From the NCBI GenBank assembly GCA_035686305.1, contig DASRZP010000063.1, forward strand, positions 68,396 through 101,273: a stretch of DNA of 32,878 nucleotides. The letters are read 5' to 3'. This DNA comes from Thermodesulfovibrionales bacterium (GTDB lineage: Bacteria; Nitrospirota; Thermodesulfovibrionia; Thermodesulfovibrionales; UBA9159). Shown in pieces: positions 17,836 through 32,470 of this stretch (positions are counted from its first letter, which is position 1; each line of letters starts with the position of its first letter). Made by a program: the position numbers and the translations under genes. The notes beneath the pieces were generated by a model, which saw nothing but the letters and a program-made list of their open reading frames with translations, was not told the origin of the DNA and did no database searches.

Positions 17836-18675
17836 TCACCGAAGAGCGGCATGGTTCACCCCATGAAATATTCTCCTCTCCTCAGCCTTGCGGAAAAGTT
17901 CTTCTATGGCACGCATCCCTTCATTCCCCAGGTCGAGAGAGTACTCATTCACATAGAGCTTGATATGCTGCTCTATCACGTCATCAGCGAGTTCCTGGGA
18001 ATGAGACTTGATATAGTCTCTCGTCTCTTCACGGTGAGAAAAGGCGTATTCGATACTCTCTCTGATGAGGCCTTCGAGGGTCTTTATCACTTCACTGCTG
18101 AGGCTCCTCTTGGCGATGATGCACCCAAGGGGGATCGGGAGTCCGGTCTCAGTCTCCCACCACTTCCCGAGGTCCTCTATCTCGACGAGGCCATGAGAAG
18201 GATAGGTGAAACGTGATTCATGAATAATCAGCCCCGCATCTGCGTCGCCGCGCCTGACGGAATCCATGATCATGTTGAAGGGCATGACAACAACGTTCTC
18301 TGCCAGTGCAGGGTCGAAGAGCTGAAGGAGGAGAAAGGCGGTTGTGAGATTACCGGGGATCGCGATTCTCTTCCCCCTCAACTTTTCTGCAGAAGTCCTG
18401 TTTTTCGTCACGAGCAGGGGCCCGCAGCCTCTGCCGATGGCCCCGCCGGAAGAGAGCAGGGAATACCGGTCCCGGAGATATCCATAGGCATGAAGGGAGA
18501 CCTTTGTTATGTCCAGCTCGGAATTCAGCGCCTTCCGGTTCAGCGTCTCGACATCGAGGAGGATCTCCCTGAACGAAAAACTGCCGGTCTCGATCTTTTT
18601 GTGCACAAGGGCATAAAAGATGAACGTATCGTTCGGGCAGGGCGAATAGCCGAGGGTAAAGGTCTGTTCCGCCAT
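17836..18675 (-). CDS. mqnD: 1,4-dihydroxy-6-naphthoate synthase MqnD
   Basis: The 279-aa enzyme converts cyclic dehypoxanthinyl futalosine to 1,4-dihydroxy-6-naphthoate in the futalosine route to menaquinone. The N-terminus LGYSPCPNDTFIFYAL, the middle DITKVSLHAYGYL and LLSSGGAIGRGCGPLLV, and IHESRFTYP with the catalytic His152 are characteristic. The C-terminal sixteen or so residues (ERRIFHGVNHAALR) run into the CBS-domain remnant, so this end may not be the ancestral one. A GGAG-containing site precedes the ATG. Another pathway gene, mqnB, lies near the right end of the window. Confidence 0.93.
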   Translation of the reverse strand: MAEQTFTLGYSPCPNDTFIFYALVHKKIETGSFSFREILLDVETLNRKALNSELDITKVSLHAYGYLRDRYSLLSSGGAIGRGCGPLLVTKNRTSAEKLRGKRIAIPGNLTTAFLLLQLFDPALAENVVVMPFNMIMDSVRRGDADAGLIIHESRFTYPSHGLVEIEDLGKWWETETGLPIPLGCIIAKRSLSSEVIKTLEGLIRESIEYAFSHREETRDYIKSHSQELADDVIEQHIKLYVNEYSLDLGNEGMRAIEELFRKAEERRIFHGVNHAALR

Positions 18676-18764
18676 TCAGTCCTTCTCCTTTCGTTATGTC
18701 TTGTGGCCTGTCATGCCGCAGGAGACGTTAATGTTCTCAAAATTGAATAGACATTTGATGAGAA

Positions 18765-18838
18765 AATCTCCCCTCGCCCCTCTTTGCCAAAGAGGGGTAA
18801 TAATCCCTTCCTTTAGAAAAGGGAGGTTGGGAGGGATT
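18765..18838. repeat. Short palindromic (MITE-like) intergenic repeat
   Basis: The 74-bp element starts AATCTCCCCTCGCCCCTC and ends GGGAGGTTGGGAGGGATT, an imperfect inverted repeat. It contains an internal perfect hairpin, CCCCTCTTTG/CAAAGAGGGG joined directly or with minimal loop. C-rich starts, G-rich ends and a hairpin core are typical of small dispersed repeats of many genomes. The rest of the mqnD upstream gap (18676-18969) shows nothing else. Confidence 0.6.
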
Positions 18839-18969
18839 CTTTCAGAATCATGCAAATGCCTATTATGAGAACCTCATGTGATTAGCACTATGAGACATAC
18901 TACACTATTATCCTCAGGGAAAACTACGGGAGCAGGAACGTGCCGGAAGGTCCATAGGTGTTCCTTGGA

Positions 18970-19494
18970 CTAGCCATCGAGGAGTGGAGCTAATACATCA
19001 GCCCATGCAGCGTATCCCTTGTCGCTCAGATGCACGCCGTCGCTGAGGTAGTAGTCCTTTACCGGTGCTCCCTCGCGGTCAGTAAACTTCGCATAGAGAT
19101 CGAAATACCCAACTCCGGTTTCTCCGGCCATCTCCCTGAGATGCGAATTCATTCTTCGGATGGAACCGTCTGATATCCAGGGAATCAGCGTCGGCAGGAG
19201 GCTGTGAACGATCATTTGCGCACCCGGATAAGAAGAGGAAAAGTTTTCAAGAACCTTTTTATAGGAACCGAGGAAGGCAAAATCCTCCATGGCCACGTTA
19301 TTGATCCCTGTCATGATGAAGATGAGGTCAAGTTGCCGGCACCTCTCTATAACCCTGCCGGTCCTGAAGAGAAGACCTTCAACCGTCTCTCCTGCCACGC
19401 CGAGGTTGCTGATCTCGTGTGCAGGAAACCTGGACTGCCAGTCAAAGAACTCTATGAGGGAATCCCCGATGAAAAGTATCTTCTTGCGACCCAT
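18970..19494 (-). CDS. SGNH/GDSL-type hydrolase
   Basis: The 174-aa esterase-like protein has the four SGNH blocks: GDSL with Ser12, a Gly in NLGVAGET, Asn in MTGINN (65-66), and Asp152-x-x-His155 in SDGVHLS. There is no signal peptide, so it is probably cytosolic, like many small TesA- or PAF-acetylhydrolase-like enzymes. Substrate is unknown. It is divergent from the nitroreductase gene across 83 bp. Confidence 0.88.
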   Translation of the reverse strand: MGRKKILFIGDSLIEFFDWQSRFPAHEISNLGVAGETVEGLLFRTGRVIERCRQLDLIFIMTGINNVAMEDFAFLGSYKKVLENFSSSYPGAQMIVHSLLPTLIPWISDGSIRRMNSHLREMAGETGVGYFDLYAKFTDREGAPVKDYYLSDGVHLSDKGYAAWADVLAPLLDG

Positions 19495-19577
19495 GATGAT
19501 AGCCTTTTAAGTCTGCACCTATTATAATTATCTATCTTATATTTATTACCCGGGAAAAGATACTATGAGGAGGTTCT

Positions 19578-20132
19578 ATGGATACTTTTGAGGCGATCAG
19601 GACAAGGAGGAGTGTACGCAAGTTTACCGATACGCCGGTTGAGGATGAGCAACTGCACTTAATTCTTGAGGCCGTCCGTCAGTCGCCCTCATGGGCAAAC
19701 ATGCAGTGCTGGAGATTTGTCATTGTAAAGGATGCCGCGGTGAGAGAAAAGATCAGCGAGTTGTCCTATGTCGAGTCTTTTTTTGCACCAAAGGGCTACA
19801 AGTCAAATCCTGCCAAGAAGGGACTTGCCGAGGCCCCTGTTGTGGTCATTGCCTGCGCAGATCCTTCACAGTCAGGGGTTATCTGGGACCAGCAGTATTA
19901 TATGGCTGATATAGGCATTGCGTCGCAGACCCTCATGCTCGCTTCCCGGTCTCTCGGTCTCGGAACGGTATTTGTCGGCGTCTTTGACGAGGAAAAGTTG
20001 AAGGATCTCCTGAATATTCCTTCAACCATTCGCATCGTCGGGCTCTTCCCCCTGGGCTACCCGACAGAGGAGAAGGCAGGACCAGCAAGAAAACCGCTCA
20101 GCGAAATCGTCTTCTATGAAAAGTGGGGGTGA
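19578..20132 (+). CDS. Nitroreductase family FMN-dependent oxidoreductase
   Basis: The 184-aa protein opens [21 protein letters not shown], the FMN-binding signature of the nitroreductase fold. It continues with [16 protein letters not shown], which forms the flavin pocket, and a C-terminal [11 protein letters not shown] motif. Such dimers use NAD(P)H to reduce nitro compounds, quinones or other acceptors. AGGAGG lies upstream of the ATG. It converges on the NRPS operon; nothing links it to that pathway except proximity. Confidence 0.9.
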
Positions 20133-20228
20133 GATATGGACGTTCCGTGGAGATGCAGGAACAAAGAGAAGCAGAGGTGTAGTGATACTTGATTTAAAAC
20201 TAGCCCTTATTCGAGGGATTTTCTGGAT

Positions 20229-23200
20229 TCATTTCTCGCTTAATGTGCCTATAAACTTCACAACCTCCAACTTGGTATCCAGTTCCGCTGCCTCTCCATA
20301 TCTCAGCAGTGTTCGATAGGTGGAAGGCAGGAGCGGTACCCCTTCCCGCATGTTACGCTCACGCGCCCTGAGTTCGGCCTCACCGGGGATAAGGATCTCA
20401 TGCGCATTTTGTGCGAGCTCTCCCGACTTTGTCTGCTCGATCATACGATCGACTCGTGCCATAAATTCGGCTGAAGACATGAAGAGTTCGGGGTCGATCA
20501 CCATAAAAAAATGGCCGAAGTCTGGTGGCCTCAAGTCCTTGTACATCTGTTCTCGGCTATGGTCATGGCAGAAGCCCGCCCCGCTCAGAACACCTGCCAT
20601 CGCCTCCATGACGAGCGCGAGACCATATCCTTTATGCCCCCCGATTGGCACACCAAGGCCAGCTGCGAGATCGGCCGGATCTGTTGAGGGACGACCAAAA
20701 TGATCGAGGATCCACCCCGGCGGTAACATTTTACCTTCAGCAAGTTGCAAGCCGATCTTTCCTCGTGGCGCAACACTCATCGCGATGTCCAGGAGAATCG
20801 GGTTGTAACGCGACGCTGGAATACCCACACCCAGCGGGTTGTTCCCGAATGTTGGAGTGACCCCACCGGTAGGCGCAAGGATCACCGGGCCGTTCGTAGT
20901 GCAGAGCCCTATCAGACCTTGCTGTACGGCGAGCCAGACATAATGTGCGGCAGCTCCAAAGTGGTTGGAGCGACGTGCACTTACTATGCTCATACCCGCC
21001 TGCTTTGCTTTTTGAATCGCCGTTCGCATAGCAATAACCCCAACCCACTGCCCGGGGCCGTTGTCTCCATCAATCCGCGCACTGATTGATGTCTCATGCT
21101 CTATCCGGATCCGGGGTTGTGGATTCGTCACGCCCGAACTGATACGCCGGGCATAACGGGGGATGCTGTCCATATTGTGCGTTCGTTGCCCGCGCAGGCT
21201 GGCCTCAAGCTGAACTTCTGTGACAATCGCAGCCCCTTCAGGCGACAAACCGGCCCTTTCCAACGCCTCACGGCCATAGGCCCGCAGGCTTTCCGCTGTC
21301 ACAAGGACCAAAGGCTTTACCGCGTCCTTCGCCATTGTTTCCTCAGGCTGAACCGAAGCGGTCGCCGTCTTCGGCTCGGTCCGTACATTGTGTGCGTTTT
21401 CAGAAATCCTCGCCAGTTCAATAACCGTCTGGTACTGGAAAAGCTCCTTAAGGGTAAGCTGCAACCCTCCCCGATTTGCGAGGCTGATTACTTGAATACT
21501 CAGAAGAGAATCCCCTCCCAATTCAAAGAAGTTATCCTCAATGCCTACACGGTCCACATTCAGAACCTGCCTCCATATGTCTGCCAGTGTCTTCTCGGCA
21601 TGGGTTCGCGGTTCGATAAATGCCCCTAAAAGTTCTTGCCGTGCCCTCTCGGGGTTGGCACAAACTGAGCCTGCCGCCAGGGCGGAAAGGGCTTTTCGAT
21701 CCAACTTCCCATTCGGTGTCAGCGGTAATGCCTTAAGTGCCACAATCATGGATGGAACCATATAACCCGGTAGCGAGCGCTTCAGAGACTCTCTCAATTC
21801 TACTATCACCCGCTTAGGAATCCGCAACACTTCTTTCGGAACTTCAGAAGCAATGGCATGATGAACACTCTCTCTAGGGACAACAAAGGCCACCAATTTT
21901 TGATTGCCTCCAGTGGCCGGCATACCACTCTTTACCATCACGCGGGTACCCTCCCCCGCTACCTCACCGGGAGTAATGACTGCGCTTTCACCCACCCACG
22001 GATGTTTTCGTAAGGCTGCTTCAATTTCCCCTGGTTGGATAAGGAAGCCGCGTAGTTTGATTTGAGAATCGTAGCGGCCGATGAGCACAATGTTTCCATC
22101 CGGCAGATAACGCGCCGTGTCACCGGTCCGGAAGAGTCGGGCTCCAGGGGCATCACTAAAGGGGTCAGACACGAACCGCTCCGCTGTCAGTTCCTGCTGG
22201 TTGAGGTACCCCCGGCCCACTCCAGCTCCACCGATATATACCTCGCCATAGACGCCGACTGGCACAAGCTGTCGGAGGGCGTCCAGGATATATACTCGCG
22301 TATTCTCAATCGGACGACCGATGGGGACGCCATTTGCGGCTTCAGCGCCAGGGTGATGGATATGATACATGCTCACGATACCCGTCGTTTCGGTCAGCCC
22401 ATACATGTTGATCAACTTCGCACCGCTTCGAAAGCAGGACGCCCACTCCGCTGGGATATCCGGGGACAGCGTTTCACTGGCGGAAAGGATCAGCCTCAGT
22501 CTACTGTTGAATGCAGCTGCCCTTGCGTCAGGCGCCAGACGACGCGCCATTTGAATACAGCTACGCCAGTACGACGGAACGACATCAAGAATCGACACGT
22601 GATGTTCACGAATGAGATCAAACAGAACTAAGTGGTCATGGATTTGATCGGTTGTGGCTATGACCACTGCTGCGCCGCAAGAGAGAGGGAGTAAAAATTG
22701 GCGAATGGATGAGGAGAATGCGAATGAGGCAGTGTGGAGATATCGATCCTCAACCATAATTCCTAACGCCTCACGCATTGCATGGACATAATGGCAAAGG
22801 TTGGCATGCGTGATCATCACACCCTTGGGGGAGCCTATTGAACCTGAGGTATAGATAACATATGCTAAATTCGTTTCTGTCGCACTGCTTTCAGGGTTTT
22901 GTTTGCTCTTTCCGTCAATAGCTTGGCAACCCGCTTCCAGACACACCAGTATCGGGGGGACGGGCTCTGAACCTTCGATTTCAGATTCCTTCTGACCAGA
23001 CACCCAAGGCGAAGTCCCGGGTCTGGCATTCAAGGCGGAAAACAGATGCTCTCCCGTGATAAGAACCGATACCTTGGCATCCCTCATCATAAAGACAAGA
23101 CGCTCTGACGGGTATTCTGGATCAAGGGGAAGGAAAGCACCTCCGGCCTTTAATACCCCCAGTATGGCCATCGCCATCTCCGCAGAGCGGGGAAGGATGA

Positions 23201-26200
23201 TCCCCACCAGTTTTTCTGGCCCCACTCCGAGTTTCTTGAGGTGCCAAGCCAGTTGGTTGGCTCTGCTATTCAGCTCGTCGTACGTGAACCTCTCATCTCC
23301 ACATTCGACTGCCAAGGCATTTGGTGTCTTGGACACCTGGTCTTCAAACACGTGATGGAGACAGAGATCGAAGCGATATGAATTTTCCGTGCGATTCCAC
23401 TCAACCGCCTGCTGGCGTCTCTCTGTGTCATCAAGTAACGGAAACTCCGAGAGACGCCTCTCGGGGTTGGCAACAATCCCTTCCAAAAGTACCTTGAAAT
23501 GCCTTGCAACCCGCTCGATTGTGTCCGCCTCGAACAGGTCGATATTGTATTTCCACAACCCCTCCAGCCCTTGCTTGGTTTCCGCAAGGTACAGGGTCAG
23601 GTCGAACTTCGCGGTTCCGCTAACTGTTCTGAAAGGATGGGCACTCAAACCCGGCGCAAGTTGAAACGGCAGTCCGGTCGTCCATATATCGTCCGACTGC
23701 TTAACCTCTCGTATCTCATTTTCTGTGGTTTCTGACCCAATCCCTATGTCAGGAAGATTCTGGAAGGCGAACATCACCTGGAATAAGGGTCCATGGCTCG
23801 GATCCCGCTCGGGCTGCAGCACCTCCACCACTTTTTCAAATGGCAGATCCTGGTGCGCGTATGCGCCCATGGCTGTTATACGCACCCGAGCCAGCAGCTC
23901 TCGGAATAAGGGATTTCCGGACAGATCATTTCTCATAACCAGCGTGTTCGCAAAGAACCCTATCAAAGGCTCTGTCTCGACACAAGGCCGGTTGGCGATC
24001 GGGACGCCTACTGGGAGATCGCTTTGCCCCGTGTAACGGAAAAGCAAGGTTTGGAATGCTGCCAGCAACGTCATGAAGAGTGTCGCTTTTTCACTCACGC
24101 TCAACGCCTTCAGCCCCTCGGTCACAGTGCGAGAGACTGTCAATTGGAGTGTCCCTCCTCGATACGTCTGCAAAGATGGACGAGGGCGGTCGGTAGGCAT
24201 CCCAATCACAGGAGGAACATTCTGGAGCTTCTCCTTCCAGTAGGCAATCTGCTTTTCTAAGACCTCTCCTTGTAGCCACCCTCTCTGCCAGACCGCAAAA
24301 TCACCGTATTGGACGGCCAGTTCCGGGAGCGGCGACTCGCAGCCTGACAGAAATGCCTCATAGAGCATTGCCAGTTCCCGGTGCAGCACTCTCATGGACC
24401 AGCCATCTGAAATGATGTGGTGCATTGTAAGTAAGAGAATGTGCTCTTCAGCGTCCAGCCCGATGAGTGCAGTCCGAAATAGAGGCCCGTGAGCAAGATC
24501 GAATGGCCGGCTGACCTCCTCGGCCCCCAGACGAAGCGCTTCGGCCTTCCGGTCGGAAGGTGGCAGCATCGTCAAATCCGTGATCGGTAGTTTTGTTGTC
24601 TCTTCTTTGACAATGACCTGTACAGGCTGCCCGCCGACCAAATGAAATGTGGTACGCAATATTTCGTGTCGGCGTCGGATTTCGTTAAGACTTTGCTCCA
24701 GTGCATCTTTGTTCAACCTGCCTTTGAGCCATAGTGAGGCGGACATGTTATAGGCGATGTTGCCGTGCTCGAACTGTTCAAGGAACCACAGCCGATGCTG
24801 AGCGAAAGAGAGAGGTAAAGGGCCTGTCATGCGCCTCCGTGGGATGCTCGCTGCTCTGGCGCTGGATAGTGTTTCTCTCGAAGATCGCTGGTCACACAGT
24901 ATGTACCCTTGGGATAAATGACCGGTCGTGCTTCGGGTGATCAGCTTCGCCAGTTGGGCAATGGTAGGATTTTTGAAAAAACTCTCCACAGGCAGGTCGA
25001 CCTGGAATTCGTCCCGCAGCCGGACGACAACTTGGCTCGCAGCCAATGAGTGGCCGCCCAAGAGGAAAAAATTATCGTGAATACCAGGGCAGTCGATTTT
25101 CAGGACACCGGCCCAGATATTTACCAACCTCTGCTCAATAAGCGAACGCAGAGGTTCAGGATCACAATGTTCTGGTTTCTGTTGGGCATTCAACTCCGTC
25201 AGACGTAGTTGCCGAGCAAGATTGGCACGCTCCAGTTTCCCTGTAGGACCCTTCGGGATGTCATCCACGATTACTACGTGATCCGGGACTTTGAAATAGG
25301 CAAGGTGCGTCGCGACAAAGCTGCGGATCTCCTGAATCAGATGATCGGGCTGGTCTGCTCTAATGCCCGAATACCCAAAGACTTGAAAATCCGGCTTAAG
25401 AACTACCGCAGCAGCGACGTTCTCGCCGAGCACGGGATGGGGGACCTTAAAGGTGACGGCCTGTGAAACTGCCGGGTGGTCCATCAGAACCTGGTCCACT
25501 TCCCTCGGTGAGATCTTCTCACCTCCCCGGTTGATTATCTCCTTGAGACTGCCGGTGACGAAAAGATAGCCATCCATATCCATGTATCCTATGTCTCCGG
25601 TACGGAACCATCCGTTGACAAAAGCGTCCTGCTTGGCCATGGTATCGTTTCCAGGGGACTGTGCAACGTTTGCACCACGGATCACGATCTCTCCTGGCTC
25701 TCCCGGCGGCATAATATTCCCCAACTCGTCCCAAATGGCGACCGCGGGTCCCGCGGCTCGACCTACTGAACCGGCCTTGCGCGGATGAGGGGGCAGCCGG
25801 TTACTCGCAATTTGAGGGGACGCTTCGGTCATCCCATACGCTTCAATAAACGGCGCACGGAACAGCCGCTCCAATTCAACCATCACAGGCAAAGGCATTG
25901 CTGCGGAGGCTGAACGAATAAAACGCAACTTGGCGCGCGCTGTGATCTCGGGATAGTGAAATGCGTTTTCGAGAATTATCTGGTGTATCGTCGGTGCTGC
26001 TGAATACCACGTTGGATGAAAAGAATCAAGACACTCGAAAAACTGCGCAGCGGAAAAGCCGGAGGGGTAGACCACACTCGCACCCGCTGCAAGTGAAGCA
26101 AAGAGCGTGCTCAGACCGTGGATGTGAAACAACGGCATCACACTGAGACAACGGTCGCTCTCCGTCAGCTGAACCGCAGCGCAGATGTTGTGTGCAGCGA

Positions 26201-26828
26201 CGCAAATGTTCTGGTGCGTCAGCCTCACTCGCTTTGGTCGAGCAGCAGTTCCTGACGTGTAAAGCGCCAGCGCCGCATCGTCCGGCTGGGACAAGCCATG
26301 CGTTATTGGAGCTGATACACTCCGACCGGCAAGGGTGAAGAGACCTGCCTCAGCTTCGGCCTGCGGAATCAATTCGAGAACGGGCACGCCTCGCGATCGG
26401 GCTACCGCCGCCGCAGTAGCCTCATAGCCTTGCAATACGATCAACGCTCTTGCATTTAAATCTCCGAGATAGAAGTCCATTTCGCTCGCGCGATAGGCGG
26501 GGTTAAGAGGTGCGCATACAGCGCCTGATGTAATAGCAACAGAGGCCACAGCCATCTCCGGCCCATCCGGAATCACCATTGCGACACAGTCCTCCCTACT
26601 CACACTCAGGGAATGAAGCGCCTCGAGAACGTACTCCACTTGGCGGCTCAAACGGCCGTAAGTCAGAGGTCTTCTTCCCGGGGCAAGGATGAAACTGGCG
26701 TTGGGGTTTCGCTCGGCCTGTTCGCGAACCAGCTGAAGGAGACAGTACTGCCGGGCCGGATCCCCCATTTGGACAGGATCAGCGTTCATAGTTCGCTCCC
26801 GCCTCTTCATTGCTCGCGCGTGCTGCAT
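20229..26828 (-). CDS. NRPS: A(acyl-CoA-synthetase-like)-PCP-C-A-PCP fused to a malate/lactate dehydrogenase-2 family reductase
   Basis: This 2199-aa megasynthase has six domains. (1) Adenylation 25-545 resembles oxalyl-CoA synthetase (AAE3) with YGMTEASPQ (331-339), TGDIGY and Lys531; its P-loop reads SGTAARPKR, slightly degenerate. (2) PCP 560-635, Ser594 in GGHSL. (3) Condensation 668-1115, LCL-like, with intact HHIISDG (803-809). (4) Adenylation 1158-1715 with YTSGSIGSPKG and Lys1708; the Asp that binds amino groups is Ser1372. (5) PCP 1735-1812, Ser1774. (6) Residues 1840-2185 form a whole Ldh_2 (AllD/YlbC-like) NAD(P)H reductase: SNHFG with His1956, TFGNNPLG, LLDIAMS and GGHKGYGLA. The ATG at 26828 has GGAGGAG upstream, inside the previous gene's end; ATG 26789 is an alternative start. 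No MbtH or carrier-activating transferase gene is near. Product unknown. Confidence 0.95.
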   Translation of the reverse strand: MQHARAMKRRERTMNADPVQMGDPARQYCLLQLVREQAERNPNASFILAPGRRPLTYGRLSRQVEYVLEALHSLSVSREDCVAMVIPDGPEMAVASVAITSGAVCAPLNPAYRASEMDFYLGDLNARALIVLQGYEATAAAVARSRGVPVLELIPQAEAEAGLFTLAGRSVSAPITHGLSQPDDAALALYTSGTAARPKRVRLTHQNICVAAHNICAAVQLTESDRCLSVMPLFHIHGLSTLFASLAAGASVVYPSGFSAAQFFECLDSFHPTWYSAAPTIHQIILENAFHYPEITARAKLRFIRSASAAMPLPVMVELERLFRAPFIEAYGMTEASPQIASNRLPPHPRKAGSVGRAAGPAVAIWDELGNIMPPGEPGEIVIRGANVAQSPGNDTMAKQDAFVNGWFRTGDIGYMDMDGYLFVTGSLKEIINRGGEKISPREVDQVLMDHPAVSQAVTFKVPHPVLGENVAAAVVLKPDFQVFGYSGIRADQPDHLIQEIRSFVATHLAYFKVPDHVVIVDDIPKGPTGKLERANLARQLRLTELNAQQKPEHCDPEPLRSLIEQRLVNIWAGVLKIDCPGIHDNFFLLGGHSLAASQVVVRLRDEFQVDLPVESFFKNPTIAQLAKLITRSTTGHLSQGYILCDQRSSRETLSSARAASIPRRRMTGPLPLSFAQHRLWFLEQFEHGNIAYNMSASLWLKGRLNKDALEQSLNEIRRRHEILRTTFHLVGGQPVQVIVKEETTKLPITDLTMLPPSDRKAEALRLGAEEVSRPFDLAHGPLFRTALIGLDAEEHILLLTMHHIISDGWSMRVLHRELAMLYEAFLSGCESPLPELAVQYGDFAVWQRGWLQGEVLEKQIAYWKEKLQNVPPVIGMPTDRPRPSLQTYRGGTLQLTVSRTVTEGLKALSVSEKATLFMTLLAAFQTLLFRYTGQSDLPVGVPIANRPCVETEPLIGFFANTLVMRNDLSGNPLFRELLARVRITAMGAYAHQDLPFEKVVEVLQPERDPSHGPLFQVMFAFQNLPDIGIGSETTENEIREVKQSDDIWTTGLPFQLAPGLSAHPFRTVSGTAKFDLTLYLAETKQGLEGLWKYNIDLFEADTIERVARHFKVLLEGIVANPERRLSEFPLLDDTERRQQAVEWNRTENSYRFDLCLHHVFEDQVSKTPNALAVECGDERFTYDELNSRANQLAWHLKKLGVGPEKLVGIILPRSAEMAMAILGVLKAGGAFLPLDPEYPSERLVFMMRDAKVSVLITGEHLFSALNARPGTSPWVSGQKESEIEGSEPVPPILVCLEAGCQAIDGKSKQNPESSATETNLAYVIYTSGSIGSPKGVMITHANLCHYVHAMREALGIMVEDRYLHTASFAFSSSIRQFLLPLSCGAAVVIATTDQIHDHLVLFDLIREHHVSILDVVPSYWRSCIQMARRLAPDARAAAFNSRLRLILSASETLSPDIPAEWASCFRSGAKLINMYGLTETTGIVSMYHIHHPGAEAANGVPIGRPIENTRVYILDALRQLVPVGVYGEVYIGGAGVGRGYLNQQELTAERFVSDPFSDAPGARLFRTGDTARYLPDGNIVLIGRYDSQIKLRGFLIQPGEIEAALRKHPWVGESAVITPGEVAGEGTRVMVKSGMPATGGNQKLVAFVVPRESVHHAIASEVPKEVLRIPKRVIVELRESLKRSLPGYMVPSMIVALKALPLTPNGKLDRKALSALAAGSVCANPERARQELLGAFIEPRTHAEKTLADIWRQVLNVDRVGIEDNFFELGGDSLLSIQVISLANRGGLQLTLKELFQYQTVIELARISENAHNVRTEPKTATASVQPEETMAKDAVKPLVLVTAESLRAYGREALERAGLSPEGAAIVTEVQLEASLRGQRTHNMDSIPRYARRISSGVTNPQPRIRIEHETSISARIDGDNGPGQWVGVIAMRTAIQKAKQAGMSIVSARRSNHFGAAAHYVWLAVQQGLIGLCTTNGPVILAPTGGVTPTFGNNPLGVGIPASRYNPILLDIAMSVAPRGKIGLQLAEGKMLPPGWILDHFGRPSTDPADLAAGLGVPIGGHKGYGLALVMEAMAGVLSGAGFCHDHSREQMYKDLRPPDFGHFFMVIDPELFMSSAEFMARVDRMIEQTKSGELAQNAHEILIPGEAELRARERNMREGVPLLPSTYRTLLRYGEAAELDTKLEVVKFIGTLSEK
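21333..21344 (-). promoter_or_regulatory. Internal in-frame ATG with ribosome-binding-like site before the Ldh_2 domain
   Basis: Inside the NRPS gene, codon 1832 is an ATG (21335-21333) with GAGG five bases upstream. It lies exactly in the linker between the last PCP and the reductase domain. It could start a free reductase of 368 aa, about the usual size of stand-alone Ldh_2 enzymes, or be a relic of a gene fusion. Confidence 0.3.
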
Positions 26829-26831
26829 AGA

Positions 26832-29800
26832 TCACTCCTCCGGCATCCGCCCAACGGTCTGTGGGGACGAGACGCAGATGTCAACCAGCGCAGAACGGCC
26901 GCGCCGCACTTCGCTGAGCGCCTCACGGAGTACCGACCTGAGTTTTGCAGGATCGTCCACTGTCCTGGCCCACAGACCCATTGCTTCTGCCATTTTTGAA
27001 TAGAGTGGCGGCTTTGGCAGATCGCATCCCGGATAGTTCCCTGTCCGCCTCGCGTATCCGTCAGGAGCTATGCCCAGGATCGCTTCGGTGGTGGCAGCAT
27101 ATGCCTGATTATTGAAGACAATCGTCAGGAACGGGCTTCGGGACTGCTCGGCTGCCCAGTAGGCTGCGAGGGGAGAACCGAATATCCAGGAGCCGTCTCC
27201 TAAAGTGCAGATGATGGTTTTGGAGGGGGATGCAAGCTTGGCTCCAAAGGCTGCTCCAAGGCCCCAACCAAGGCCGGACCCGAGGCTTTGATAGTAAGTT
27301 CCGGGCGTGTCCAACTGCAAATAACGCCACAGGACTTGGTTGTTACTGACAGCTTCGCTGACGATTACCGTGTCCTCATCCACAATCTCGCTCAAGCAGT
27401 ACGCAGCCCATTCAGGCGCGATCGGCTGTCGCGCCGCCAGACCGAAAGCTCTCTTCTGCCACCTCGCCCTTTGCGCCTGGTGTTGGGCGGTCAGGACATG
27501 GCGGCGTCTTTCAATCCGTGTGCGATCTGCACGGCTCAGCAACCGCTCGACCTCCTCGGCCAAGGCCGACATGGCATGGGACGAGTCGGCCTGAATGGCA
27601 AGATCCACTGGGAATCCCCAGATTGGAATATCCCGTTTGAGAGGGTCAATGTCCACATGGATTATGCGGCATGCAGACGGTGGTCTATATTGCGCTGGCA
27701 CCCATGGAACGTCGTGATCGACGATCAGAACGCAGTCAGCTCGGTGCAAATGGGAACCGGCCGAAAAACCGAGATGAAGAGGGTGACCAGAAGGAAAATT
27801 GACTCGGTGGCGCGACTCCACTACTGGTGCAGCCAGCGTCTCCGCGAGTCTAACCAGAGAGGCAGCAGCCTTGGGATTACGGCCCGCATAGGCTACAAGA
27901 ATCAAAGGTCTATCGGCCTCGATCAGCCACTTTGCTGCCCGGGAGAGGCTGTCAGGGTCAACCGCCAGCGTCGAAATCGCCGGCGCACGATTGGCATCAA
28001 CAATAGGGGTTTGCACGGTCTGCACAAGCACTTCCCTGGGGAGAGTCAAATATACCGGCCCAGCTGGCTCCGTCCGGGCTACCTGGAACGCACGCTGCAC
28101 CGCTAAGTGAAGGTTTTCCCGGCAGGTCAGCTCGTAATGCCATTTAACATAACCGTGCACAATGCTCTCCTGGCTGAACTGCTCTTGTATCCAGTGGATA
28201 TAGCTATCACGCCCACCTGGGAGACTGCCATCAACGGTGTACGGGGCCCTCCCCGCACAGACGACTACTCCGGCGCGGCCCCGCTGTGCGTTATGCAGGT
28301 TTGCGCCGATGTTCTGGGTCCCTACGTCAACGTGAACTAGGACTACCTGGGGCCTACCGCTGACCATGAAGTAGCCATGCGCGGCGGCCATAGCCACGGA
28401 CTCGTGTAGACAGAGGATCAGTTCGGGCGACCGGCGCCCCTGGACTTTAAACTTTGCAATGGATTCCTGGATCGGCACAGTGTCGGTCCCGGGATTGATA
28501 AAGATGTAGTCGACAGCGCAAGCGTTCAGCGACTCGAGATACCCGTCGGCTACGTTGTCAACCCCAGGCGGCTGTTGTATTCCCAGGTTGAGATGCTGAA
28601 GTTCTGCATGGCTGTCCTCCGTTGACATGGTCTTGATCTCCTTGAGTTCTCTGTTGATTTTCTCTGCCAGCATCCTCACATGCGGTTCTTTCAAAATACT
28701 CATATGATGTCCCGGAATGGACTGGATTCCCACACACTCTGCAACGCTACTCCATTCCATATCCTCGCAGGACGGAATTAACCGCTGAGCTCTTGCCCGA
28801 TAAAGGGTAATACGGCCGGGATATTTTTGAGGGGTATATCTTCTCAGCCACCGAATTATTTCCCGTAAGTTATCTATCGATTCTTCAGATACCTCGGTAG
28901 GGTTATAGGGTTTGCGGAGAAAAGTCTTTTTCATTTTATTGTTGGCAATCGTCCAATAATGGCTCAGCCAGAAGGGGAGCGTGTAATATAACCACCAAGG
29001 AAGGTTTCTCGCAAAGGCCCTTATCATTGCCGCTTCCCATGGTTTTGGTTTCTCCTTGGAACGATCCGGGCAAGAAGTATCAAGAATTCCGAGGAAGAGG
29101 ACATTAAGGTTCATCATCTGAAGCTGCCTCGCCATCTCAAATGCCACAAGTCCACCGGATGAAAACCCGATCAGCATGAAAGGTCCATTAGGTATTTTCC
29201 CGCGTAATTCACTGACATACTGAAATGCTATTTCTTCTATGGACCGACAAAGTACATCTTCAGCACCCTCTAACCCGTAGACCGGTTGGTCCGGATCCAG
29301 GTATTTTGCAAGGTGACGATAGATTAACGTGCTACCCATGACATCAGCCACGCAAAAAAGCGGAGGGTTAGACCCCTTTGGCTGTATGGAAACCAGGGAG
29401 GATTGAGACTCCGGTTCTTGATAATTGGTGATTACGGCGGCAAGCTTTTCTACAGTGGGCGACTGAAAAATAGCAGAAAGAGGAATCCTTATCCCAAATT
29501 CTCTTTCTATCCTTCTGAAGAGCTGAACGACCATAAGAGAATGACCACCCATATCAAAGAACGAGTCTTCAATGCCCACGGTATCAATTTGGAGCAGCTC
29601 AGCCCAGATTCCCGCCAAGACCTCCTCAATCGCATCACGCGGAGCGACAAACGGGCGAGCAAGTGTCGGTCGTGTGCGCCACGGGCGGCTGGCGGTGAAG
29701 TGGGCAGCGAGCGCCGCATGATCGACCTTGCCGCTTGGCGCACGCGGGAACTTCTCCCGCATTACGAAGACAGAAGGGATCATGTGCTCAGGCAGTGTCT

Positions 29801-31412
29801 CAGAAAGAGAGCGCCTGAGATCGCTGACGGTTGGTGCTGGCAGACGAGCTGGCACGAGGTAGGCTACGAGACGCTTCTCCTCGGGTTCCGTTATCTGCTC
29901 GTGATTTCCCGTCTCGCCACTCCCTGTGGGTGTCAAGTTGTCGCTTTTGGCGTGGAGATGAAACCGCCCGGAAGGGTTATCCTCTACCGTCCCCAGCGCA
30001 AGAACAACTGCCTCTGTGAAGGTGCCCAAGTTGAGCAGGGCAGTTTCCACCTCAATTGGTTCGATCCGGTGCCCACGGACCTTCACCTGGAAGTCCTTCC
30101 TTCCCAGGTAGAAGAGACAGCCGTCTGAGCGCATCCGTCCCATATCCCCTGAGAGATAGATTCGCGCCTCTCCGCCGTTCGGATCGGGCAGGAATCGCTT
30201 CCGGGTCAATTCGGGTTGGCGCCAGTAGCCTAGTGAGAGGTAGCGGCTCTTGACAGCAATCTCCCCGACCTCGCCGGGACCGACCTTCTGTCCGTTCTCG
30301 TTGAGCAAGAAGATCTCTGTCCCTTCAGTTGGGTAGCCGACCGGAATAAGCGCGTCGGTGAACTGGGTTTGTTTATCGATGAAATAATGGCAGTCACTCC
30401 CCGTTTCCGTCGCGGCCAGATTAATCAGCATCAGGCATTGGGGTGAAAGATACCGGCGGTAAAGCTCAACATCGCTTCGGTAGACCGGTTCCCCTCCAAA
30501 GGTCACCAGGCGGAGCCGGGGGAACTGATCTTCCCCGGTGAGAGAATGTCTCCAATCTCGCAGAAGCCGCCGCCCATTGCTGATCGTGATCTCTTCTTGC
30601 TCAAACCACCGGGGCAGGTCTTCCAGTCCCACCGTCCGCAAATCCAATGGATGGAGCGACGCACCGTTCAGCAGAGCGGGGAAAATTCTCCGCAGTGATG
30701 CGCTAGAGCTACAGGGGTGTAACAGAGCCAGTCGATCATCCCGGCAAACATGGAAGCTGTTCGTAACCCGTAAGACTTCGAACAAAAGGTTTCGGTGGTT
30801 CTGGAGGACTCCCTTAGGGGTTCCTGTCGAACCCGAGGTATAGATAATGTTAACACCATAATCGGGTGAAATCGCAATAGCCGGATTCGTGGAGGAGTAA
30901 TGAGAACTCGGCGTGTGTAGATTGATCCTTGGGATCTTTCGTGGCGTTAGTTCAGCTGCGGCAGACATATTCCGGGAGTCGGTGAGAATGAGGCTGGTCT
31001 GGGAATCCTCGATTATGTAGGAAAGACGAGGCCGTGGAAACCGGGGATCGAGAGGCACATATATCTTCCCTGCCTTCAACACCCCCATTATTGCAGCTAC
31101 TACCCATGCACCCTGATCCAGTAACAACGCAACCGGTTCCTCGCCTTCGCCGTATTGTTCCAGAATGGCGTCCGCGATCCGGTTAGCTGCCTTGTTCAGC
31201 TCGGCGTACGTGAAACTGCGGTCATGACTTCGAACGGCAAGCCGGTCAGGGTATCGCAGCACCTGTTGCTCGAAGCGAGACGGGATTGACTGCTTGATAT
31301 CCTCTAGGTCAAAGGGCTCAAAGTTATTCGTCGGTGTTACCAGTCGGGCCCTCTTCACTGGAGTGATATCGGAACCACTTGGGATGTCTAATTCTCTCCT
31401 TGCTGATTCCAA
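26832..31412 (-). CDS. NRPS-like A-PCP-TE protein fused to an acetolactate-synthase-like ThDP enzyme
   Basis: The 1526-aa protein has four parts. Adenylation 45-570: YTSGSTGTPKG (191-201), LAATETG, GRKDFQVKVRGHR and Lys562; the amino-group-binding Asp is replaced by Ser237. PCP 590-665, Ser625 in GGHSL. Thioesterase 682-930: Ser751 in GFSSG, Asp778 and His903. Then 940-1520 is a complete ThDP-dependent enzyme of the acetolactate synthase / benzoylformate decarboxylase type, with catalytic Glu1004 in LCLHESVA and the cofactor motif GDG-x26-NN (1405-1435). There is no condensation domain. The start codon is TTG (31412) with no strong ribosome-binding site, so the exact N-terminus is uncertain. 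Gene 2 of the operon follows after 3 bp. Fungal A-PCP-TE enzymes such as TdiA and AtrA use 2-oxo acids; the fused ThDP enzyme fits such substrates. Confidence 0.95.
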   Translation of the reverse strand: MESARRELDIPSGSDITPVKRARLVTPTNNFEPFDLEDIKQSIPSRFEQQVLRYPDRLAVRSHDRSFTYAELNKAANRIADAILEQYGEGEEPVALLLDQGAWVVAAIMGVLKAGKIYVPLDPRFPRPRLSYIIEDSQTSLILTDSRNMSAAAELTPRKIPRINLHTPSSHYSSTNPAIAISPDYGVNIIYTSGSTGTPKGVLQNHRNLLFEVLRVTNSFHVCRDDRLALLHPCSSSASLRRIFPALLNGASLHPLDLRTVGLEDLPRWFEQEEITISNGRRLLRDWRHSLTGEDQFPRLRLVTFGGEPVYRSDVELYRRYLSPQCLMLINLAATETGSDCHYFIDKQTQFTDALIPVGYPTEGTEIFLLNENGQKVGPGEVGEIAVKSRYLSLGYWRQPELTRKRFLPDPNGGEARIYLSGDMGRMRSDGCLFYLGRKDFQVKVRGHRIEPIEVETALLNLGTFTEAVVLALGTVEDNPSGRFHLHAKSDNLTPTGSGETGNHEQITEPEEKRLVAYLVPARLPAPTVSDLRRSLSETLPEHMIPSVFVMREKFPRAPSGKVDHAALAAHFTASRPWRTRPTLARPFVAPRDAIEEVLAGIWAELLQIDTVGIEDSFFDMGGHSLMVVQLFRRIEREFGIRIPLSAIFQSPTVEKLAAVITNYQEPESQSSLVSIQPKGSNPPLFCVADVMGSTLIYRHLAKYLDPDQPVYGLEGAEDVLCRSIEEIAFQYVSELRGKIPNGPFMLIGFSSGGLVAFEMARQLQMMNLNVLFLGILDTSCPDRSKEKPKPWEAAMIRAFARNLPWWLYYTLPFWLSHYWTIANNKMKKTFLRKPYNPTEVSEESIDNLREIIRWLRRYTPQKYPGRITLYRARAQRLIPSCEDMEWSSVAECVGIQSIPGHHMSILKEPHVRMLAEKINRELKEIKTMSTEDSHAELQHLNLGIQQPPGVDNVADGYLESLNACAVDYIFINPGTDTVPIQESIAKFKVQGRRSPELILCLHESVAMAAAHGYFMVSGRPQVVLVHVDVGTQNIGANLHNAQRGRAGVVVCAGRAPYTVDGSLPGGRDSYIHWIQEQFSQESIVHGYVKWHYELTCRENLHLAVQRAFQVARTEPAGPVYLTLPREVLVQTVQTPIVDANRAPAISTLAVDPDSLSRAAKWLIEADRPLILVAYAGRNPKAAASLVRLAETLAAPVVESRHRVNFPSGHPLHLGFSAGSHLHRADCVLIVDHDVPWVPAQYRPPSACRIIHVDIDPLKRDIPIWGFPVDLAIQADSSHAMSALAEEVERLLSRADRTRIERRRHVLTAQHQAQRARWQKRAFGLAARQPIAPEWAAYCLSEIVDEDTVIVSEAVSNNQVLWRYLQLDTPGTYYQSLGSGLGWGLGAAFGAKLASPSKTIICTLGDGSWIFGSPLAAYWAAEQSRSPFLTIVFNNQAYAATTEAILGIAPDGYARRTGNYPGCDLPKPPLYSKMAEAMGLWARTVDDPAKLRSVLREALSEVRRGRSALVDICVSSPQTVGRMPEE
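28626..28643 (-). promoter_or_regulatory. Internal in-frame ATG with strong ribosome-binding site before the ThDP domain
   Basis: Codon 929 is an ATG (28628-28626) with AAGGAG (28643-28638) nine bases upstream. It lies in the linker after the thioesterase. Translation from here would give a free 598-aa ThDP enzyme, the normal length of stand-alone relatives. Confidence 0.4.
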
Positions 31413-31464
31413 AATGCTATTAGACTGCGGAAGAGTTCTTTTTTTTGGTTCTTTTAGAGGTTAT

Positions 31465-31494
31465 ATTATAGAGTGAATAGTTGGGATATTGCAA
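31465..31494 (-). promoter_or_regulatory. Sigma70-type promoter of the NRPS operon
   Basis: On the minus strand, TTGCAA (31494-31489) and a perfect TATAAT (31470-31465) are separated by 18 bp. The expected start lies near 31458, giving a leader of about 46 nt before the TTG start codon at 31412. Confidence 0.75.
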
Positions 31495-31563
31495 CTTTTT
31501 CTGATAATGCACAGCTTTTAATCAACAGGATAACTAAACGTCAGTCTTTAAGCGTACGCTTCA

Positions 31564-31765
31564 CTAACGGTTTCTTTGCACCAATTGCCTCAGATAACTC
31601 GCACCTTGTCGCTTCAAGGTTTCAGTGTTGATTCCAGTCATCACCCCGCTTCGATATCCTGCTCCTTCTCTCGAACTGGCCTGACTGATACACCATGGGA
31701 TCTATGCCGGCAAGAGCGATGGAGTTCTGACCTCCAAATAGTAAGTCTTTGATATCTGCCGAGGG
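31564..31765 (-). pseudogene. Degraded IS110/IS116-family transposase C-terminal fragment
   Basis: Reading leftward from 31765, one frame gives SADIKD...IALAGIDPMVYQSGQF...RISKRGDDW and stops at 31622-31624. IAxAGIDPxVxQSGxF...ISKRG is the conserved C-terminal block of IS110/IS116/IS902 transposases. A second frame at 31617-31564 reads KRQGASYLRQLVQRN, matching the next conserved stretch (SYLR) but out of frame. Both ends are missing, so this is an inactive relic. It fills most of the gap between mqnB and the NRPS operon. The remaining 31500-31563 shows nothing recognisable. Confidence 0.7.
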
Positions 31766-32470
31766 TCATACAATCTTCAGTATCTCCATTACTGCTTTCT
31801 GGCAGTTCTCTGCCGCGAGCGGGATATTCCATTTGTCCCTGTCCCGGTCCTCCACGATATTGCTGATGCCCCGTATCTCGAGCATCGGGACTCCATACAA
31901 AGCGCAGATCTGTGCAACGGCAGCGCCTTCCATGTTCTCGCAGATGGCATGGTACTTCTTCTTGAGTTCGACGGCACGTCTCCTTGTCCCAGTGCATGTA
32001 GAGGTCGTAATGAAGGTGCCGGACTTGATGGGTGCAATACGCCCGCCAATCTTCAAAACTCTTTTCAGAAGTCTCTTGTCGAGCAAAAATTCATTGAAGA
32101 AGGTCTTCCTCCCCTTTCTTAGGAGCGGGATACCGACGAACTCGGTTCCATGGAAGCCATAACCTGTCTGAACCCCCTCATCGCCGTAAACCTCTTTTTC
32201 AGCGACTGCCACGTCACCAACCTCAAGTCCAGCGGAGGGATAGGCGCCTCCGATGCCGAAGAGGATTATGATATCAGGTGAGAATTCTTCGATCAGGATT
32301 GTTGCCGCATGTGCCGCGTTTGTCTTTCCCATGCCGGAGATGATATACGCGGTTTCTCTTAATCCGATGGTACCTCTGTAGAGTGTTCTGCCTGAAAGGG
32401 TCCTCTTTTTCCTAATGCGGTCAACGAGTACCTTCCCTTCTTCGAGGACTGATGATATAAGCCCAAGCAT
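31766..32470 (-). CDS. mqnB: Futalosine hydrolase MqnB
   Basis: The 234-aa enzyme of the purine-nucleoside phosphorylase fold removes hypoxanthine from futalosine in menaquinone synthesis. FGIGGAYPSAGLEVGDVAVAE with EVYGDEGV, and ENMEGAAVAQICALYGVP with the following RGISNIVEDRD, are typical of MqnB and distinguish it from MTA/SAH nucleosidases. It starts 21 bp after the proA stop and is probably co-transcribed with it. An MTA/SAH nucleosidase identity is the main alternative, less likely given mqnD in the same window. Confidence 0.88.
   Translation of the reverse strand: MLGLISSVLEEGKVLVDRIRKKRTLSGRTLYRGTIGLRETAYIISGMGKTNAAHAATILIEEFSPDIIILFGIGGAYPSAGLEVGDVAVAEKEVYGDEGVQTGYGFHGTEFVGIPLLRKGRKTFFNEFLLDKRLLKRVLKIGGRIAPIKSGTFITTSTCTGTRRRAVELKKKYHAICENMEGAAVAQICALYGVPMLEIRGISNIVEDRDRDKWNIPLAAENCQKAVMEILKIV

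Follow-up and report, generated by a model that had tools for sequence, protein, structure and literature searches.

The window, as we term the whole stretch of DNA analysed here (32,878 nucleotides), carries two adjacent genes that appear, from comparison with their relatives, to form a conserved two-gene cassette: an (A-PCP)-ThDP protein followed by an A-PCP-C-A-PCP-Ldh2 protein, with the thioesterase (TE) of the first gene lying outside the conserved design. The pairing of the ThDP enzyme with the second gene looks like a real, transferable cassette present in two phyla. Our best explanation, to which we give a probability of roughly 0.4, is that the ThDP domain decarboxylates a 2-oxo acid and transfers the acyl anion in cis, within an acquired two-gene assembly line.

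A synthetase gene ending in a ThDP enzyme

Gene 1 (Table 1) has no internal stop over its 1526 aa and begins with a TTG codon, the alternative start being a GTG at codon 19. Its Pfam domains, which all exceed their gathering scores, are AMP-binding (residues 47-397), PP-binding (598-661), Thioesterase PF00975 (684-921) and the N (953-1083), M (1157-1284) and C (1357-1512) parts of TPP_enzyme. These six domains, in that order in one open frame, bear out the preliminary description of an A-PCP-TE unit joined to a full ThDP enzyme. Its further remark that it knew of no characterised enzyme with such a domain order agrees with the literature, mostly open-access, in which none was found; nor was an NRPS-ThDP or NRPS-Ldh2 fusion, or either domain on carrier-protein modules, encountered in that literature, which included few subscription journals. 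Neither an RNA family nor a tRNA was detected in the window.

Table 1. Positions of the two cassette genes, their domains and flanking genes in the window
Feature	Position	Strand	Basis
Gene 1, A-PCP-TE-ThDP, 1526 aa	26832..31412	-	ORF/translation, Pfam, NCBIfam
Gene 1 adenylation (A) domain	30003..31274	-	Pfam, alignment of 42 A domains, tree
Gene 1 PCP, GGHS motif at residue 622	29430..29621	-	PF00550, motif position
Type I thioesterase, triad Ser751/Asp778/His903	28650..29363	-	PF00975, alignment with A-PCP-TE proteins of the order, composition
Internal Shine-Dalgarno-like AAGGAG	28638..28643	-	precedes in-frame ATG
In-frame ATG, residue 929, TE-ThDP junction	28626..28628	-	AAGGAG 9 nt upstream
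ThDP enzyme NF006203/PRK08327, predicted benzoylformate-decarboxylase fold	26868..28562	-	NCBIfam, AF2, VIA, conservation
Gene 2, A-PCP-C-A-PCP-Ldh2, 2199 aa	20229..26828	-	ORF, Pfam
Gene 2 first A domain, oxalyl-CoA-synthetase-like	25194..26756	-	PDB search, alignment
Gene 2 first PCP, GGHS	24939..25133	-	Pfam, motif
Gene 2 condensation (C) domain, HHIISDGW intact	23412..24818	-	Pfam, motif
Gene 2 second A domain	21939..23348	-	alignment
Gene 2 second PCP, GGDS	21400..21590 (limits approximate)	-	Pfam, motif
Ldh_2 (malate/L-lactate dehydrogenase type 2), gene 2 C-terminus	20307..21302	-	Pfam, PDB search, alignment
Left flank, futalosine hydrolase mqnB, outside the cassette	31766..32470	-	marks insertion site
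Right flank, nitroreductase-family gene	19578..20132	+	directly after mqnB in G003

Amino-acid-activating A domains hold the alpha-amino group through Asp235. The gene 1 A domain does not fit this class, as it has Ser at position 235, as well as NLAATETG instead of the YGPTE core, and in an alignment of 42 A domains Asp235 was missing from all 14 members of its family, which is what non-amino-acid substrates would lead one to expect.

The ThDP part scores 673 bits against NF006203 (cut-off 456) over residues 951-1515, and is thereby placed in that family. The label 'acetolactate-synthase-like' used in the preliminary description is a loose one: against TIGR00118, the model for acetolactate synthase, the same region reaches 150 of the 538 bits required, which rules that family out, and benzoylformate decarboxylase is closer by both sequence and fold. 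In sequence searches the nearest solved structures are those of benzoylformate decarboxylase (E 1e-37), followed by BbmA and cyclohexane-1,2-dione hydrolase. Benzoylformate decarboxylase is also the best structural match (VIA; Z 39, rmsd 2.6 A over 514 residues, 28% identity) of an AF2 model built from 59 sequences with a mean pLDDT of 92; an earlier model from three sequences, with a pLDDT of 47, was set aside. BbmA structures were again among the matches by fold. The catalytic Glu1004 and the motif GDG (1405-1407), x26, NN (1434-1435) are all present where they had been described, and both Glu1004 and His1027 are invariant among 59 related ThDP proteins (59/59 each), while D1406 and N1434 are found in 58/59 and 56/59, respectively. 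The pocket loop NPG(S/T)NE of benzoylformate decarboxylase, which includes Glu28, reads NPGTDT in the window. Based on its modelled fold and its motifs, the domain is predicted to work like a benzoylformate-type 2-oxo acid enzyme. No member of PRK08327/NF006203 with a tested function was found in the literature, and a plasmid megablast with the ThDP region returned no match.

The TE scores 82 bits against PF00975 (cut-off 26), and alignment with the Ser-type TEs of relatives confirms the previously described Ser-Asp-His triad, with Ser751 in GFSSG. The GC content of the gene 1 domains varies, from 46-47% in the PCP and TE (46% in the TE) to 55% in the A domain and 59% in the ThDP domain, which fits a mosaic gene.

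A conserved two-gene cassette

Scanning the genomes of 84,980 species with the ThDP part yielded 434 relatives, the best 80 of which were kept. Among these, the top two are 71% (L072) and 65% (L051) identical to the window domain, and the next at most 53%. The first is a free ThDP enzyme, from an order represented by one genome only. The second, from a Bryobacteraceae MAG, is part of a 1211-residue A-PCP-ThDP protein that has a Pro/Ala linker and no TE, and its gene is followed after 3 nt by one for a 2070-residue A-PCP-C-A-PCP-Ldh2 protein. Between the window and L051, identity is 65% in the ThDP domain, 54% throughout gene 2 and 33% in the A-PCP part. A scan of 257 genomes of the order to which the L051 genome belongs found one further cassette, in the acidobacterial genome G616, where the same set is spread over three contigs and the A-PCP-ThDP protein again has no TE; a TAA that interrupts the frame of its A domain (L153, upstream of 9865) means that this copy is either a broken gene or misassembled. 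Each of the three cassettes is from a MAG-type or draft genome. Apart from the window, a search at E 1e-100 found no NF006203 member in the window's order (175 further genomes) or among 395 other genomes of the phylum.

The position of a ThDP enzyme behind a TE, which the preliminary description singled out as the oddity, thus has to be viewed differently. No characterised precedent for it was found in the literature covered, but the TE is not conserved, and since in the two acidobacterial relatives, which have no TE, the ThDP domain follows straight after the PCP, the unusual feature is the presence of a ThDP enzyme on a carrier-protein synthetase. The conserved core of the cassette would accordingly comprise the ThDP domain and gene 2, with gene 2, which had earlier been left aside, as the better conserved partner.

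The TE-ThDP junction had been flagged for a possible break at residues 930-940, but the frame is open and its codon structure clean; given this, and the fusion of ThDP to A-PCP in L051, a frameshift artefact is unlikely. The ATG at residue 929 is the only one of the 26 in-frame ATGs of gene 1 with an AAGGAG site of this kind, and it falls in the start region of the standalone L072. It is likely to be the former start of the ThDP enzyme and possibly still serves as such, in which case a free ThDP enzyme may also be translated. There is no comparable internal start at the PCP-ThDP junction of L051, and in this protein the fusion therefore appears to be obligatory.

Gene 2 starts 3 nt past the stop of gene 1, and the final codons of gene 1 contain its Shine-Dalgarno sequence GGAGG (GGAGGAGTGATCTATG). 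In a PDB search its first A domain matched oxalyl-CoA synthetase (E 5e-108). Both plant oxalyl-CoA synthetase structures have a His in the motif TEA(S/T)H; this His is replaced by Pro in the window (EASPQIASN), L051 and G616, and is retained, by alignment, in a protein from elsewhere in the window's own genome (L041) and in L162-L165; oxalate is made less likely as a substrate by this loss. The pocket of the second A domain contains Ser235, Ser236, Arg239 and Asp278, and is identical in L051. Arg239 and Asp278 might suit an amino- or keto-dicarboxylic acid that is activated via its distal carboxyl, a guess that draws on iso-Asp/Glu codes. The C-terminal Ldh_2 domain scores 364 bits against PF02615 (cut-off 38.8) and matches malate and sulfolactate dehydrogenases in the PDB. 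In free Ldh2 enzymes the Arg of SHGxxR holds the free carboxylate of the substrate; in all three cassette copies this motif has become THNMDS or THNVDS.

Origin and genomic setting

In the tree, the fused ThDP domains of the window, L051 and G616 group together as a single clade (SH-aLRT 97), the standalone L072 being next (100), and each gene 2 A domain falls with its acidobacterial counterparts (support 100/90-100). By contrast, the gene 1 A domain clusters with A-PCP(-TE) proteins from the order of the window itself (92/93 and 91/93), although constraining the fused A domains to one clade was not rejected by an AU test (p 0.08). ThDP-free A-PCP-TE proteins are common in this order, most of them beside a PPTase, and as the front of gene 1 resembles them, it is probably a local A-PCP(-TE) unit that took the place of another front. 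By this exchange, the TE would be a lineage-specific off-loading part. In a set of such PPTase-adjacent A-PCP-TE proteins, from order relatives (L168-L170, L172, L174) and the window's own genome (L042), the TE nucleophile is Cys (GYCFxG, GWCFWG) in place of Ser.

The cassette itself appears to have been acquired horizontally, because mqnB and the nitroreductase gene, which flank it in the window, are neighbours in the related genome G003: in this member of the same family, the nitroreductase gene follows about 47 nt after mqnB. The surroundings of the cassette (17836-32470) constitute a futalosine menaquinone neighbourhood, with mqnB on one side and, beyond the nitroreductase gene on the other, an mqnD-like and a GDSL-like gene. 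The contig is resident, since its MetK is 76-79% identical to those of same-family genomes and the genes around the cassette are arranged as elsewhere in the family; these two observations rule out contamination. The window MetK (20-1231) is present in some genomes of the family only, and is 47% identical to a second MetK on contig C116 of the same genome (G000).

The same genome contains a second assembly line (L041; contig C38, 1-9433). Its first member is an A-PCP protein that resembles oxalyl-CoA synthetase and retains the His. Next in the row come a free ThDP enzyme nearest to PRK05858/oxalyl-CoA decarboxylase (325 bits), a protein similar to PrpB/PEP mutase, and C-A-PCP. This line is possibly a carrier-bound oxalate-to-formyl route. 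Identical NRPS sequence is found at the ends of contigs C33, C38 and C34 (L039, L041 and L042), which probably derive from a single repetitive NRPS cluster that the assembly split up; an A-PCP-TE and a PPTase-like gene stand at the end of C34.

Neighbourhoods of free ThDP relatives

The gene neighbourhoods of 79 free ThDP relatives, 1.15 Mb in total, were surveyed. Ldh2 genes were found at four loci, from gut bacteria of one clade, always directly beside the ThDP gene with a gap of -19 to 37 nt, and these were the sole Ldh2 matches in the sequence surveyed. FMN-dependent 2-hydroxyacid dehydrogenases occur at six loci, aldehyde dehydrogenases at six loci and on a Comamonas plasmid, and AOR at two. 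For instance, in termite-gut bacteria (L087, L090, L098, L106) the PRK08327 ThDP gene overlaps or adjoins that of the Ldh2 dehydrogenase, and in a Tectomicrobia MAG (L067, 7315-12796) it lies between genes for a UbiD decarboxylase and an aldehyde ferredoxin oxidoreductase. Mandelate-type pathways lead from a 2-hydroxy acid to a 2-oxo acid, which is decarboxylated to an aldehyde. The neighbours of the free enzymes point to 2-oxo acid decarboxylation or carboligation accompanied by 2-oxo/2-hydroxy redox chemistry, and because of this mandelate-type setting, the ThDP and Ldh2 domains, as C-terminal additions of the cassette, look like a recruited metabolic pair.

Proposed function and alternatives

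In the assembly line that we favour, gene 1 would load a non-standard carboxylic acid onto its own PCP, with an active ThDP enzyme of the benzoylformate decarboxylase type supplied in cis, while gene 2 would join two more acyl units and likewise have a 2-hydroxyacid/2-oxoacid dehydrogenase in cis. The ThDP domain would strip CO2 from a 2-oxo acid and hand the acyl anion to another carbonyl compound in an acyloin-type carboligation, with simple aldehyde release as the fallback for this step, and the Ldh2 domain would set the 2-oxo/2-hydroxy state of the same or a neighbouring unit. Within this explanation we infer the activity, its direction, the substrates and the operation of both C-terminal enzymes on one unit. 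Three roles for the ThDP enzyme had been offered in the preliminary description; the joining (or decarboxylation) of 2-oxo acids is favoured, and action on a TE-released product is weakened by the relatives that have no TE. Several points count against our explanation: benzoylformate-type enzymes may only decarboxylate, the Ldh2 neighbourhood of the free relatives comes from one gut-bacterial clade, and, given the internal Shine-Dalgarno sequence and ATG, the ThDP enzyme may be partly independent. That the ThDP domain might form a carbon-carbon bond on a PCP-bound unit, as a means of chain building or release with Ldh2 setting the redox state, we regard as unlikely; we know of no NRPS or PKS line with ThDP-based release or extension of such a kind.

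The ThDP domain might alternatively do no more than supply a precursor, as a simple 2-oxo acid decarboxylase giving a free aldehyde to other enzymes or to the chain end. This is possible, if rather doubtful: the closest solved relatives of the domain are decarboxylases, its free relatives adjoin aldehyde dehydrogenases, and ObaH provides such a case, albeit as a separate gene (PMC5490192), but the cassette contains no aldehyde-using enzyme (transaldolase, aminotransferase), and the fusion of the domain with a carrier protein, found in three genomes, speaks for action in cis. The recurrence of this fusion also bears on whether it arose by accident, through loss of a stop codon between an A-PCP-TE and a ThDP gene, with the ThDP part being made mainly from the internal ATG as a free enzyme. 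The unique AAGGAG upstream of that ATG, the near absence of a linker between TE and ThDP, and their difference in GC content would all suit such an accident, which is nevertheless distinctly improbable given that the ThDP domain is fused in both L051, where no such start is present, and G616, and that the fused domains form a single clade. Still less credible, indeed barely so, is a missing stop or indel in the assembly that merged two neighbouring genes; the genome is a draft of 147 contigs, but two other genomes have the same joining, the codon structure of the junction is clean, and MetK and synteny show that the contig is resident.

2-hydroxyacyl-CoA lyase (HACL) and oxalyl-CoA decarboxylase are ThDP enzymes that act on CoA esters, and by analogy the ThDP domain might cleave or build a 2-hydroxyacyl thioester on the PCP, where Ldh2 would oxidise or reduce it. 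Such a carrier-bound substrate would be consistent with the ThDP domain following straight after the PCP in L051 and G616, with the loss of the SHGxxR Arg from 3/3 Ldh2 copies, and with the pairing, in the same genome, of an oxalyl-CoA-decarboxylase-like ThDP enzyme and an oxalyl-CoA-synthetase-like A-PCP protein. We nonetheless find it quite improbable, as the ThDP domain belongs to the benzoylformate branch and not to that of oxalyl-CoA decarboxylase and HACL, and the first A domain of gene 2 lacks the oxalyl-CoA synthetase His. Tailoring after release, in which the ThDP enzyme would modify a product already freed by the TE, draws on the intact triad of the TE and its position ahead of the ThDP domain, but is very improbable, because the two relatives that combine ThDP with gene 2 have no TE. 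The cassette gives the uncharacterised PRK08327 family a functional setting and constitutes a testable two-gene system of 11 kb.

Comparison with known systems

ThDP enzymes are major natural tools for umpolung carbon-carbon bond formation. The window domain scores above the NF006203/PRK08327 cut-off and has all of the catalytic motifs in common with that family. The members found are free enzymes, mostly of about 570-640 aa, and among them an NRPS-like fusion occurs only in the window, L051 and G616. The domain likewise resembles its best solved relative, benzoylformate decarboxylase (MdlC), in retaining the Glu and the His70 equivalent, and its free relatives sit among hydroxyacid and aldehyde dehydrogenases, as in the mandelate pathway. 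It differs from MdlC in its overall sequence, which is 28% identical, in its NPGTDT loop and in being fused to A-PCP(-TE).

In A-T-TE furanone and quinone synthetases of the RalA and AtrA/TdiA type, the TE is the last domain and forms the product. Gene 1 is similar to these in its A-PCP-TE order and in an A domain without Asp235, but its TE is followed by a 565-residue ThDP enzyme, and the relatives of gene 1 have no TE. Two reports (PMC10316625, PMC12105029) bear on this family, which has bacterial and fungal members. An example of 2-oxo acid carboligation beside acyl-activating enzymes is the acyloin-forming ThDP enzyme CybE (PMC12395478). The ThDP alpha-hydroxy-beta-keto acid synthases CybE, CsmA and BbmA differ from the window domain in being separate proteins, about 22% identical to it, with no carrier protein. 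ObaH, from the obafluorin pathway, is a phenylpyruvate decarboxylase beside an NRPS, a ThDP enzyme that makes an aldehyde, and yielded no acyloin (PMC5490192). Like the proposed role of the window domain, that of ObaH is as a ThDP 2-oxo acid decarboxylase serving an NRPS, but it is a separate enzyme and its aldehyde is free.

Keto acids are reduced within the NRPS by the A-KR-T depsipeptide modules of cereulide and valinomycin. FrsC, a malate-dehydrogenase-type enzyme, makes phenyllactate for the depsipeptide FR900359 (PMC9299796). The cassette has the handling of 2-oxo acids in an NRPS in common with both, but its dehydrogenase is of the Ldh2 family and forms the C-terminus of a synthetase. 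The individual domains of the cassette are all of known kinds and, to the extent that this could be tested, the novelty lies in their arrangement and pairing. In both phyla the built-in ThDP and Ldh2 domains have been retained, whereas the front module differs; this suggests a compact assembly line of the acyloin or hydroxyketone type. The ThDP enzymes found for comparison in NRPS-type pathways are separate precursor enzymes, whereas here the enzyme is built into the carrier-protein synthetase itself.
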